The translations under genes were made by a program, and so were the position numbers. DNA of 64,000 nt. Source: Myroides guanonis (GTDB taxonomy: Bacteria; Bacteroidota; Bacteroidia; Flavobacteriales; Flavobacteriaceae). Location: NCBI RefSeq assembly GCF_900114085.1, contig NZ_FORU01000017.1:1-64000 (forward strand), written 5' to 3'. A model generated the notes under the pieces. The model was not told the origin of the DNA. It was given only the letters and a program-made list of their open reading frames with translations, and did not search any database. Of this stretch, positions 21,713 through 55,085 are shown in pieces (the stretch's first letter is position 1; each line of letters begins with the position of its first letter).

Positions 21713-22192
21713 ATGAAAAAAACAATTCTTTTAAGCGCATTGCTAACATTAACGTTGGTTTCTTGCAAAGAAAACACACCAAAGGCAACTGTTGAAACAG
21801 AAGAGCAACCGACAATTGAGAAAACTAATTCAGAATCTTCAGAGGTTGAGGAATATAAAATATACACTCAAGATAAAATTGATGAGATGAATAAAATAAT
21901 TGGTGAAGAAAAAATCACAGACCATAACGCCATTTTCGAACGTTTTTTCCCAAAAGACAATGAAGCAGAAGGAAATTACAGTTATCAAAAAAGAATTGTA
22001 ATTGAAGACAACAAACACATTGTTATGGAGATTATTGAAGATGGAGTAATGGATGATTCTATTCAAGCAATAAGAACCTTTATGTCTATTGATAAAAGTA
22101 AAGCTACTCCAGTAATTACTGAAGTAAAACAAAGCTTTAAATGTAAACTAAACCGTGGCCAACAAGAATGGTCTGCAGCCTTTTGTATGTAA
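21713..22192 (+). CDS. Small lipoprotein, paralogue A
   Basis: A 159-residue lipoprotein (lipobox LVSC, Cys18). A Glu/Thr-rich linker (about 20-48) leads to an acidic alpha/beta domain. It ends with a distinctive motif: FKC, then RGQQEWSAAFC, so two Cys bracket a Trp-Ser segment. It is a clear paralogue of the lipoprotein at 22692-23177, sharing the EDxMxxDS segment and the C-terminal Cys-W-S-A-Cys block. I do not recognise the family. It lies 32 nt after the porin and ends at a strong terminator, so it may be part of the porin transcript. Confidence 0.75.
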   Translation: MKKTILLSALLTLTLVSCKENTPKATVETEEQPTIEKTNSESSEVEEYKIYTQDKIDEMNKIIGEEKITDHNAIFERFFPKDNEAEGNYSYQKRIVIEDNKHIVMEIIEDGVMDDSIQAIRTFMSIDKSKATPVITEVKQSFKCKLNRGQQEWSAAFCM

Positions 22193-22691: not shown

Positions 22692-23177
22692 ATGATTAAG
22701 AATTTTTTAACCTTTAGCTTTTTAGTAAGTTTCCTTGTAATTTCCTGTACGGACAAGAAAACAACTACATCCGAAAACATAAACTCGGACTCTTTATCAA
22801 TGGAAATAGACACTCCTAATGAAGAAATAGAGGAATATCGCACTATGGATTCTAAAACTTTAGAAAACATCAATGCTACTATTGCTCGTAAGAATTTAAA
22901 TACTCCACAAGCAATTCTGAATGCTTACGCCCCTAAAGACACTACCAATAAGGATGAAGACTATGTATACGAGGTAACGAAAATGAAGTCAGACGAGAAT
23001 GCAACCCTTTTATTATTGGTGGAAGATAATATGCAAAACGATTCTTTAAAAGCGCGCAAAGTATTAATGCGAGTAGAATATAAAGACAACAAACTAAAAG
23101 TTATTCAGATTAAGGAAAGTTATCAATGTTGGGAATGGCGCGGACATCAAGATTGGAGTGCCGTAGTATGCCAATAG
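22692..23177 (+). CDS. Small lipoprotein, paralogue B
   Basis: A 161-residue lipoprotein (lipobox VISC, Cys19). It parallels the gene at 21713-22192: acidic linker, EEIEEYR versus EVEEYK, VEDNMQNDS versus IEDGVMDDS, and the ending YQC...RGHQDWSAVVC versus FKC...RGQQEWSAAFC. The two differ widely elsewhere, so this is an old duplication. The family is unknown to me. It ends at its own bidirectional terminator. A weak -7-like box (TACATTTA) is upstream. Confidence 0.75.
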   Translation: MIKNFLTFSFLVSFLVISCTDKKTTTSENINSDSLSMEIDTPNEEIEEYRTMDSKTLENINATIARKNLNTPQAILNAYAPKDTTNKDEDYVYEVTKMKSDENATLLLLVEDNMQNDSLKARKVLMRVEYKDNKLKVIQIKESYQCWEWRGHQDWSAVVCQ

Positions 23178-23579: not shown

Positions 23580-24734
23580 TTATTCTTTGAAATAAAAAGT
23601 CAATTCTTCACGAAGATTATATCTAGAAGACATCACCTCTCCATAAGCCCCAGCAGTTCTAATTGCCATAAGACTCCCTCTTTTTAACTCAGGTAATAAA
23701 ACTTCTTTACCAAAACAATCACTACTTTCACAAATAGGCCCTACGACATCATAAGAAACCATATTATCAGACTCCCTTTCATCCAAACATTCTATCTTAT
23801 GAAAAGCCTGATACAAAGCTGGACGCAATAACTCGGTCATTCCAGCATCAAGTATTGCAAAGTTTTTCTTCAATCCATTTTTGATATACAAAACACGACT
23901 CAACAAACTACCACAAGAAGCTACTAAAGACCTACCCAATTCAAAATGGATTTCTTGATGTTCTTTAGGTTCTAAAAACTGATTGAATATAGCGAAAAAA
24001 GCCTCAAATTCAGCTATTGCCTCCTCATCTGCCTTTTCATAATTAACACCTAATCCCCCTCCTAAATTCAATACTGGCACCTCTACACCTCTTTCATAAA
24101 ACCATTCGTTCCATTCGTTCACTTTTAAACATAAACGTCTAAAAACACTCAAATCCATAATCTGAGAACCTACGTGAAAATGCAATCCTTTAAAATTTAA
24201 ATATTCATTCTCCTTTATGATTTCCAAACAACGATCCAACTCATGAGATAAAACTCCGAACTTATTCTCATCTAATCCAGTTGTTATATAATGATGAGTC
24301 TTTGCATCTACATTAGGATTAATTCTTAAAGCAATAGAAGCTGGCAACTTAAGAACCAATGCCCACTCACCTATTACCTCTAACTCTTGGACAGACTCAA
24401 CATTAAAAGCAAATATCTGATGCTTCAATGCTGTCTGAATTTCCTTGTCAGTCTTACCTACTCCTGCAAAAACAATTTCATTCGTTTTAAATCCACTTCT
24501 AACTGCTAAATCTATTTCTTGTCCACTAACACAATCCGCTCCTAAACCAAGTTTTTGAATCTCTTCTAAAATTCTTGGATTGTTATTTGCCTTGATAGCG
24601 TAGTGAATTTTATAACCATATTTTTTAGACTCGTTCAAAGCCACTGAGATATTCTTTCTCAATAAAGGCAAATCATATACATATGCTGGTGTTGAAAGCT
24701 TTTCTAAAGCTTTTATATTTTCTATTGTAAACAT
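23580..24734 (-). CDS. lysA: Diaminopimelate decarboxylase
   Basis: A 384-residue PLP enzyme making L-lysine from meso-diaminopimelate. The PLP Lys is in HYAIKANNN (Lys48), the HVGSQ motif and GGGLGVNYE follow, and the substrate-binding GPICESSD is near residue 340. The start is set at the ATG at 24734 (MFTIENIK). A longer frame to 24788 overlaps lysC and adds an unrelated 18 residues. It is the second gene of the operon after lysC (16-nt gap), and the likely target of the leader attenuator upstream of lysC. Confidence 0.93.
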   Translation of the reverse strand: MFTIENIKALEKLSTPAYVYDLPLLRKNISVALNESKKYGYKIHYAIKANNNPRILEEIQKLGLGADCVSGQEIDLAVRSGFKTNEIVFAGVGKTDKEIQTALKHQIFAFNVESVQELEVIGEWALVLKLPASIALRINPNVDAKTHHYITTGLDENKFGVLSHELDRCLEIIKENEYLNFKGLHFHVGSQIMDLSVFRRLCLKVNEWNEWFYERGVEVPVLNLGGGLGVNYEKADEEAIAEFEAFFAIFNQFLEPKEHQEIHFELGRSLVASCGSLLSRVLYIKNGLKKNFAILDAGMTELLRPALYQAFHKIECLDERESDNMVSYDVVGPICESSDCFGKEVLLPELKRGSLMAIRTAGAYGEVMSSRYNLREELTFYFKE

Positions 24735-24750
24735 CGATTGACTAATTCTA

Positions 24751-26070
24751 TTAAAAAATTCTATTATGTAGAGAGCGCAATGTCTCAATTTTATGTTGTT
24801 CTGGAACTAATATAGACAAGTTATGTTCACTTCCTCCATACGAAATCATTCGAACCGGAATGTGTTTAACAGCCTCCGTAACTATAGTTGCATGTCCATG
24901 AGTTTTGGTTTTAAAATCTCCGACTACACAAATTATACTATGATTTGAATCTACATCAACATTTCCAAAATGCTCCAACTCTCTAACAATCTCTTCTAAG
25001 TGTATCGTTTCATCAATAGTTAAAGACACCGCTACTTCTGAAGTGGTAATCATATCTATTGGAACCTTATATCGTTCAAACACCTCAAATACTCGTCTTA
25101 AAAAACCATAAGCCAACAACATTCGAGAAGAGTGTATACGTATAGCAGTAATTCCATCTTTGGCAGCTATAGCAACTATTTTCCCGTCACTTTGAGTGCT
25201 CTCAGAAATCAATGTACCCTTAGCATCTGGAAGCAAAGTATCTAACAAACGAACTGGAACATTAAATTTCTTTGCAGGAAACACACTCTGAGGGTGCAAG
25301 ATTTTTGCTCCAAAATAAGCCAATTCCGCAGCCTCGTCAAAACTTAGTTGTTCTATTGCTTTTGTATTACTTACACAGCGCGGATCATTATTGTGAAAAC
25401 CATCAATATCGGTCCAAATTTGTATCTCATCTGCTAGAAGTACAGCCCCTATCAACGAAGCAGTATAATCAGAACCTCCCCTTCTTAAATTATCAACTTC
25501 CCCAAAATTATTTCGACAAATATACCCTTGAGTAATAAATAATGTATCAGAACTGTATTGCTTCATAATACCCCCCAATTTCGAAGTCATATATTCATAA
25601 TCAGGTTCCTGATCAGCATCAAGTCTCATAAAATCTAAAGCAGGTAACAACACAGATGATATAGCCTGCTCTTTTAAATAATAATGAAAAAGTGCCGTTG
25701 ATAACAACTCACCTTGTGCTAAAACAATACGTTCCTCTACTTGAGTAAACAAGTCATTAGCTAACCCCTCCAATAATTTAAAATGATGATCTATCAAATT
25801 TTGCCCATCATTCAATCCTTCCACTGACACGAAAAGCTCTGATACAAAAACCTGATACTTTTCATAAAGATTTTGGACTTGAGTAATCGCTAATTCTTTG
25901 TCTCCTTTCAAATAGTTCTTAGCAATTTGCTCTAAACTATTAGTAGTTCCTGAAACTGCAGACAACACAATGATGTGCTTCTCACTCGGTTGTGATTCAA
26001 TAATAGAAAACAACTTTTTCATTCTTTCTGGACTTCCCACGGATGTCCCACCAAATTTTAATACTTTCAT
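24751..26070 (-). CDS. lysC: Aspartokinase, monofunctional
   Basis: A 439-residue enzyme phosphorylating aspartate, the first step towards lysine, threonine and methionine. KFGGTSVGSPERM is at the N-terminus, LRRGGSDYTASLIG near residue 194, and two ACT-like regulatory segments make up about residues 300-439 (IRIHSSRMLLAYGF and SIICVVGDF). There is no fused homoserine dehydrogenase. Its pairing with lysA and the Lys-rich leader peptide point to a lysine-dedicated, lysine-controlled isoenzyme. The start ATG at 26070 begins the conserved motif directly. Confidence 0.93.
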   Translation of the reverse strand: MKVLKFGGTSVGSPERMKKLFSIIESQPSEKHIIVLSAVSGTTNSLEQIAKNYLKGDKELAITQVQNLYEKYQVFVSELFVSVEGLNDGQNLIDHHFKLLEGLANDLFTQVEERIVLAQGELLSTALFHYYLKEQAISSVLLPALDFMRLDADQEPDYEYMTSKLGGIMKQYSSDTLFITQGYICRNNFGEVDNLRRGGSDYTASLIGAVLLADEIQIWTDIDGFHNNDPRCVSNTKAIEQLSFDEAAELAYFGAKILHPQSVFPAKKFNVPVRLLDTLLPDAKGTLISESTQSDGKIVAIAAKDGITAIRIHSSRMLLAYGFLRRVFEVFERYKVPIDMITTSEVAVSLTIDETIHLEEIVRELEHFGNVDVDSNHSIICVVGDFKTKTHGHATIVTEAVKHIPVRMISYGGSEHNLSILVPEQHKIETLRSLHNRIF

Positions 26071-26102
26071 AGGTTACTTTTAGGTCGTGTTAAAACAAAA
26101 AA

Positions 26103-26123
26103 GGCTTGTCGTGATGACAAGCC
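26103..26123 (-). terminator. Attenuator terminator in the lysC leader
   Basis: On the minus strand GGCTTGTC-ATCAC-GACAAGCC forms an 8-bp stem with a 5-nt loop, followed by a T6 run. It lies 33 nt before the lysC ATG and after the leader peptide. No gene on this strand lies upstream for it to terminate, so it acts on the lysC leader itself. Confidence 0.75.
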
Positions 26124-26140
26124 TTTTTTTATGATTTTCT

Positions 26141-26197
26141 CAAATAAGGATATTGCTCACGACGTCGGACGTAAGTACTGTTTCTTTACCTTATTTG
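26141..26197 (-). promoter_or_regulatory. Mutually exclusive pairing segments of the lysC attenuator
   Basis: Two exact complements can be read. CAAATAAGG (minus strand, 26197-26189), covering a Lys codon, pairs 9 bp with CCTTATTTG (26149-26141). GTCGTGA (26163-26157), which contains the leader stop codon, pairs 7 bp with TCACGAC (26114-26108) in the loop and 3' arm of the terminator. The first pairing hides the second segment in its loop; the second would break the terminator. Confidence 0.6.
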
Positions 26198-26213
26198 TTT
26201 TTATTTGATACAT
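26157..26213 (-). CDS. Predicted lysine leader peptide
   Basis: An 18-codon frame, MYQIKTNKVKKQYLRPTS, begins at ATG 26213 about 12 nt after the expected transcription start and ends at TGA 26157-26159. It has four Lys codons (positions 5, 8, 10, 11), three of them within four codons. The stop codon lies inside the GTCGTGA antiterminator segment. A ribosome stalled at the Lys codons would free that segment; a ribosome finishing the peptide would cover it. This geometry is that of amino-acid attenuators such as those of his, trp and thr operons in enterobacteria. Confidence 0.6.
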   Translation of the reverse strand: MYQIKTNKVKKQYLRPTS

Positions 26214-26231
26214 TTTATTCTATTTCGAATG

Positions 26232-26261
26232 CAAATATAGTTTTATATTAGAAACTACCAA
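26232..26261 (-). promoter_or_regulatory. Predicted lysC-lysA promoter
   Basis: On the minus strand TTG (26261-26259), a 19-nt spacer and TATATTTG (26239-26232) match the Bacteroidota consensus. The start should fall near 26226-26228, giving a leader of roughly 155 nt. Confidence 0.65.
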
Positions 26262-54897: not shown

Positions 54898-54971
54898 GGC
54901 GATGTGGCGCAACTGAATAGCGCATCTGATTACGGCTCAGAAGGTTGCAGGTTTGAATCCTGCCATCGTCA
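54898..54971 (+). tRNA. tRNA-Arg (anticodon ACG), copy 1
   Basis: A 74-nt cloverleaf. The acceptor GGCGATG pairs with CATCGTC (one G-T pair). The anticodon stem TCTGA/TCAGA holds the loop TTACGGC, giving anticodon ACG. The T arm carries the GGTTTGAATCC segment. The discriminator is A, and CCA is not encoded. Confidence 0.95.
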
Positions 54972-55011: not shown

Positions 55012-55085
55012 GGCGATGTGGCGCAACTGAATAGCGCATCTGATTACGGCTCAGAAGGTTGCAGGTTTGAATCCTGCCATCGTCA
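55012..55085 (+). tRNA. tRNA-Arg (anticodon ACG), copy 2
   Basis: Identical over all 74 nt to the copy at 54898-54971 and separated from it by 40 nt. Both sit between one promoter and one terminator, so they should be co-transcribed. Confidence 0.95.

Follow-up and report, generated by a model that had tools for sequence, protein, structure and literature searches.

A predicted lysine-codon leader attenuator preceding lysC in Myroides guanonis and other Flavobacteriales

Results

The lysC-lysA locus

The window analysed here, i.e., the whole stretch of 64,000 nt from Myroides guanonis (contig NZ_FORU01000017.1), carries a leader region on the minus strand between the divergently placed bshC and lysC-lysA genes. 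All elements listed in the initial annotation of this DNA lie on that strand, from 26261 to 26097. For the lysC product, the top-scoring model was PRK09084 (lysine-sensitive aspartokinase 3), with a score below that model's cut-off. The genes and features of the locus are the following:

23580-24734 (-): lysA, diaminopimelate decarboxylase, 16 nt 3' of lysC (TIGR01048 above cut-off)
24751-26070 (-): lysC, aspartokinase of 439 aa, lysine-sensitive aspartokinase III-like (NCBIfam TIGR00657 above cut-off)
26097-26129 (-): intrinsic terminator AAAAAAGGCTTGTC-ATCAC-GACAAGCCTTTTTT, segments 3 and 4 (fold; compensatory changes)
26108-26125 (-): segment 3 AAGGCTTGTCATCACGAC, terminator 5' arm and loop, predicted partner of segment 2 (fold; loop motif)
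26141-26149 (-): P1 3' arm CCTTATTTG, its CCTT common to the antiterminator (fold; covariation)
26146-26163 (-): segment 2 GTCGTGAGCAATATCCTT, antiterminator with segment 3 (predicted partial-transcript fold, 47/47 leaders)
26156-26161 (-): P2 3' arm CGTGAG, overlapping the leader stop (fold, alignment)
26157-26213 (-): leader peptide ORF MYQIKTNKVKKQYLRPTS and stop, 18 codons (sequence; conserved Lys codons)
26170-26175 (-): P2 5' arm CTTACG, segment 1, from the third base of codon 13 through codon 15 (33/33 paired)
26190-26192, 26184-26186, 26181-26183 (-): sensor Lys codons 8, 10, and 11 (Lys -11, -9, -8 in 11/11 orthology-found leaders)
26189-26197 (-): P1 5' arm CAAATAAGG, part of segment 1, within the ORF (fold; covariation)
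26232-26261 (-): promoter of Bacteroidetes type, TTG 26259-26261, spacer of 19 nt, TATATTTG 26232-26239 (sequence)

Three aspartokinases were found in the genome, on contigs C14, C17, and C26: the product of this lysC, another, monofunctional protein of 417 aa (28% identity), and one within an 813-codon open frame, probably as a homoserine dehydrogenase fusion. No leader copy beyond that of lysC was detected in this genome; the weaker leader-model matches that were inspected were gene-end terminators or hairpins without a Lys or Trp leader ORF, and a second match to the sequence pattern falls within a coding gene. Elsewhere in the window, neighbouring genes at 21713-22192 and 22692-23177 (plus strand) encode predicted lipoproteins of 159 and 161 aa, the latter without NCBIfam match, whose C-terminal ends are alike (..Q.WSA..C.), a tandem duplication being likely. 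Tandem tRNA genes with equal Rfam scores were also present at 54898-54971 and 55012-55085 (plus strand).

Leader peptide, sensor codons and distribution

The consensus promoter claimed initially was found as TTG, 19 nt, and TATATTTG, and this last element did not vary across nine leaders of the genus. By its consensus it is of Bacteroidetes type, and a transcription start site of the leader is presumed. The leader ORF (26213-26157) agrees with its first description, having 18 codons with Lys at codons 5, 8, 10, and 11, and its stop codon (26157-26159) lies inside segment 2. Since four Lys in 17 residues are by themselves only mildly unusual in an AT-rich genome (~0.04 by a binomial with 8% Lys assumed, the measured share being 6.9%), the case was built on comparison.

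The GTDB genus (121 genomes) was searched via lysC with the motif not assumed; this lysC occurred in nine genomes (62-72% identity or identical), and the leader preceded it in 9/9, with 18-19 codons, an end of the form ..KK.(x)(x)LR..S before the stop, and a terminator downstream. In the family sample (397 genomes), 135 other lysC genes were obtained at E <= 1e-90; among the 29 closest, which were inspected, the leader was present in three (G209, G142, and G370), one contig was cut off, and the remaining genes had upstream DNA unrelated to the leader. A leader on every lysC of the family was consequently rejected, the inspected lysC genes of 50-53% identity having other upstream regions. Moreover, eight of 50 Weeksellaceae genomes carried this LysC, and the same eight carried the leader.

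Across the 11 leaders found by lysC orthology, Lys was present at -11, -9, and -8 from the stop in 11/11, with AAA and AAG interchanging at these positions, and residues -10, -7, and -6 varied. The proposal of Lys-codon sensing is upheld for codons 8, 10, and 11 but not for Lys 5, which is not conserved. A GTDB-wide scan of 84,980 species genomes with the pattern AARAARN6TTRCGYN6TCGTGAG, which fixes beforehand Lys -9, Lys -8, and parts of P2 (positions judged on the orthology-found set only), returned 60 loci, comprising 45 full leaders and 15 chance matches. Lys -11, left free by the pattern, was found in 47/47 leaders. Furthermore, AAG was over-used in the Lys leaders (45/47 at -9 and 35/47 at -11) against a share of 21-31% in coding genes of leader-bearing organisms, where AAA is preferred; this bias has possibly been selected for tRNA-charging sensitivity, or for P1 pairing. 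By sequence, a short ORF whose codons specify the amino acid made by the downstream pathway is thus present, as in known attenuators, and its translation is predicted.

The 45 full leaders all belonged to Flavobacteriales or to Bacteroidetes MAGs, with hosts including Myroides, Paenimyroides, some Flavobacterium, Chryseobacterium, and Elizabethkingia. Where downstream DNA was sufficient, lysC was the next gene in 42/42; the 15 chance matches had lysC near in 0/15, and none had a leader peptide of the Lys type. Its conservation and its tie to a single gene set the leader apart from a chance occurrence. A general link to lysA was rejected, lysA being 3' of lysC only in the Myroides-like group, Avrilella, and some MAGs. 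A match to the fluoride riboswitch RF01734 (L146:2413-2474, minus strand) was also observed in the 8-kb locus that carries the lysC leader of Myroides sp. NP-2.

Hairpins, antiterminator and terminator

The initial annotation had called for folding the leader and for checking whether related lysC leaders keep the Lys codons and the pairings. The 157-nt leader folded at -32.7 kcal/mol (z = -4.76 vs shuffled sequences), and the comparison was favourable, with covariation in P1. This 9-bp pairing of CAAATAAGG with CCTTATTTG, found as claimed, joins codons of the ORF to a stretch 3' of the stop. Its arms differ by cluster (UCUAAC/GUUAGA, AUAUC/GAUAU, UUGGAUU/AAUCCAA, and GUUAUAA/UUAUAAU), and over 11 clusters the cognate arms had a mean of -10.35 kcal/mol vs -7.58 kcal/mol for swapped partners (permutation p = 0.00035; outer arm, p = 0.00015). 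Three diverged members have a weak P1. Nested in P1, a hairpin unnoticed before, P2 (CUUACG/CGUGAG), was paired in 33/33 aligned leaders, its variation being one-sided only (A-U to G-U in three leaders).

An intrinsic terminator stands between the leader ORF and the first gene. It was indeed where it had been described, with a stem of 14 bp (26116-26129 with 26097-26110) and not of 8 bp, a loop ATCAC, and a U run. In its lower part five pairs have compensatory changes (33 leaders); the top GUC:GAC and the loop are constant. Terminator function requires no fixed loop sequence. The loop motif TC[AG][CT]GA, complementary to the stop region, was present in 49/49 leaders vs 0/136 other terminator-like hairpins drawn from the same DNA, where the one apparent loop match (L090) was itself a Lys leader.

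The antiterminator core pairs GTCGTGA (26157-26163), which holds the TGA stop, with TCACGAC (26108-26114), in agreement with the earlier proposal; the predicted pairing is longer than the 7 bp then stated, with extra pairs GCAA/UUGU and CCUU/AAGG in the window, and involves the terminator 5' arm besides the loop. When the RNA 3' of a ribosome at Lys 11, made to mid-terminator, was folded, an antiterminator with GUCGUGA:UCACGAC was predicted in 47/47 leaders, and CCUU-type bases paired with the terminator 5' arm in the window and in the other printed examples. No column covariation was found for the 2:3 antiterminator, whose core is nearly invariant, and swap tests were not significant (p = 0.12 and p = 0.21); both are silent because the core does not vary. 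Diverged members of the wider family retain the antiterminator in other letters (GUGAUGA:UCAUCAC in L059, GUGAGA:UCUCAC in L256, and CGUAAUC:GAUUACG in L251). The folds accordingly model 1:2 and 2:3 as mutually exclusive pairings, with 2:3 excluding the terminator, as an attenuator would have.

At equilibrium, most leaders, including that of the window, favour the full terminator over the antiterminator (-18.3 for the terminator alone vs -15.2 for the antiterminator partial transcript). Therefore, antitermination would have to be kinetic, and the outcome is the expected one because such a device works by order of synthesis.

Discussion

Proposed mechanism and alternatives

We propose, at a probability of about 0.88, that the element is a ribosome-mediated transcription attenuator of the classical type, sensing charged Lys-tRNA before lysC-lysA. 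The parts predicted from the sequence, namely a promoter, a Lys-codon ORF, the exclusive pairings 1:2, 2:3, and 3:4, and a terminator, are all conserved. The ribosome-stalling attenuation suggested initially is supported, since part order, Lys codons, antiterminator, and terminator are conserved across two Flavobacteriales families. From these parts we infer that the leader is translated, that the ribosome stalls at codons 10-11, that antitermination is kinetic, and that the element responds to lysine.

When lysine is short, the ribosome would wait at Lys codons 10-11, covering the 5' arms of P1 and P2. The ribosome footprint is ~15 nt; with Lys 11 in the A site, the front of the ribosome would reach about codon 14-15, over the P2 5' arm. 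Segment 2 (GUCGUGAGCA...CCUU), thus freed, would pair with nascent segment 3 (AAGG...UUGUCAUCACGAC), so that the terminator would come too late and lysC-lysA would be transcribed. With ample lysine, a ribosome at the stop would cover segment 2 and the terminator would form, and with no translation P1 and P2 would hide segment 2 and transcription would end. By these positions, a ribosome at the sensors is predicted to mask segment 1, and one at the stop segment 2. One step differs from the initial model, in which opening of the first hairpin frees GTCGTGA: P1 lacks this sequence, which would be masked directly by P2, with P1 hiding the CCUU part of segment 2.

It is improbable that the hairpins and terminator are real and the Lys codons a by-product of P1, the leader then sensing general translation or its Leu-Arg-Ser end. 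Part of the Lys stretch (AAGGGAAAG) does sit in P1, paired with CUUUCC, P2 dictates how the peptide ends, and LR..S before the stop is conserved in Trp leaders as well. However, Lys -11, -9, and -8 are kept with AAA/AAG interchange, with residue -10 being G, V, S, A, D, E, or Q, and L129 and L119 retain Lys despite a poor P1. Moreover, in Trp leaders built on the same layout, Trp codons occupy the register of the Lys codons, and codon identity tracks the downstream gene in every case inspected.

That the main product is a small RNA or a trans-acting leader peptide, with lysC control secondary, appears very improbable: a terminated RNA of ~130 nt is predicted, and trans action is known for leader peptides such as peTrpL of Sinorhizobium (PMC7298713), but the element stands directly before lysC in 42/42 and follows lysC into another family with different neighbours. 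We see next to no chance of a disguised lysine riboswitch or T-box, although such elements govern lysine genes in Firmicutes and Gammaproteobacteria (PMC2258182, PMC1262725). A scan of the whole window at Rfam gathering thresholds found neither, with only two tRNAs matching and no match to the T-box model, and the leader has only ~130 nt, filled by the ORF. The lysine riboswitch RF00168 was not detected above the cut-off in 60 relatives, with four control genomes scoring positive, in accordance with the initial view of the attenuator as an alternative to this riboswitch.

Origin of the leader-lysC unit and its meaning

A branch with 100/100 support separated the 42 leader-bearing proteins from the others in a tree of 70 aspartokinases, and the proteins of Chryseobacterium and Elizabethkingia adjoined Paenimyroides inside the Flavobacteriaceae part. 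In these two genera lysA is not 3' of lysC, and the neighbouring genes vary. The tree suggests that the leader-lysC unit was transferred between families. There is an even chance, in our estimate, that a trp-type leader was copied before lysC, Lys codons replacing its Trp codons with the register unchanged, and that the cassette then entered Weeksellaceae; under this recoding, hairpins, stop position, and terminator would have been kept. If true, the Lys leader would be the first attenuator of the leader-peptide type to sense lysine, and an example of a natural codon swap in such a sensor.

Textbook leader-peptide attenuators control his, trp, thr, leu, ilv, and phe, and lysine is ascribed to the L-box riboswitch and to T-boxes. 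The literature describes riboswitches in the case of lysine and leader peptides in that of his, thr, phe, trp, leu, ilv, and cys (PMC1262725, PMC2965389, PMC2258182, PMC8632094), with lysine listed among riboswitch-controlled pathways and his, thr, and phe among attenuator-controlled ones (PMC1262725). No earlier description of a lysine leader peptide was found in the literature, subscription journals being outside the scope of the search. In this context, the kind of sensor is known for other amino acids, and it is the lysine version for which no earlier description was found. A group without detectable L-box but with a conserved Lys-codon leader fills a gap in the lysine regulation of Bacteroidetes, and the leader parts suggest a portable transcription switch for these bacteria. 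Furthermore, the Lys and Trp leaders form a natural pair for asking whether a change of sensor codons alone switches specificity; the pair is useful as a test because both are built on one chassis and co-occur in several genomes.

Comparison with known systems

The putative Lys leader and the Bacteroid-trp leaders of Rfam (RF01692; motif table of Weinberg et al., 2010, PMC2864571) are sisters. Both have a common promoter position, an ORF of ~18 codons ending in ..LR..S before the stop, a CUUACG/CGUGAG hairpin over the stop, and a terminator with an AUCAC-like loop; Bacteroid-trp has Trp codons and trpE/trpB, whereas the Lys leader has Lys at -9 and -8 and lysC. Indeed, the stop-codon hairpin, the common terminator sequence, and the peptide end of RF01692 were all recognised in the alignment; in place of Trp codons and a tryptophan gene downstream, there are Lys codons and lysC. 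The window scored 36.4 bits against a threshold of 49 and falls outside the family, as did 15/15 further Lys-leader loci, and 2/2 Trp leaders passed (66 bits). A model built on nine Lys leaders (R1) had matches in 331/397 family genomes, and the top matches inspected were mostly tryptophan leaders, e.g., MNTIKINTWWWNNLRQTS and stop, before the anthranilate synthase gene trpE. In Myroides-like genomes, Trp leaders precede trpB and not trpE (L219, L220, L221, and L222, in G071, G019, G057, and G075, respectively), co-occurring with the Lys leader; both kinds were found together in four genomes. In register, WWW lies at -10 to -8 from the stop and Lys-Lys at -9 and -8. A trpB search of the genome of the window, run without positive control, gave no match.

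Met-rich short ORFs with a terminator, MNLIIVNMLMPMMWKNPQGSLCL and MILNNSIMCAMMCNFYAEVAIV, were also observed at L224:1501-1660 (plus strand) and L253 (G489:C114:42210-42363, minus strand), ~210 nt 5' of an O-acetylhomoserine sulfhydrylase gene and with a promoter of the same kind as the Lys leader; they are candidate Met (or Met/Cys) leader attenuators.

In Flavobacterium psychrophilum, from the same family of bacteria, leader-peptide attenuation with the same proposed mechanism has been reported before amino-acid operons, in a main text that names neither lysC nor a lysine leader (PMC9723704). The lysine riboswitch (L box, RF00168) shares with the putative Lys leader the control of lysC via transcription termination, and acts in this way on other lysine genes too, but senses free lysine through an aptamer of ~180 nt, and no such aptamer is present at the Lys leader. 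Finally, the his, thr, trp, and phe attenuators of Proteobacteria resemble the Lys leader in having end-product codons, 1:2, 2:3, and 3:4 pairings, and a terminator before the first gene, whereas the Lys leader has no sequence relation to them, would sense lysine, and has a Bacteroidetes promoter.
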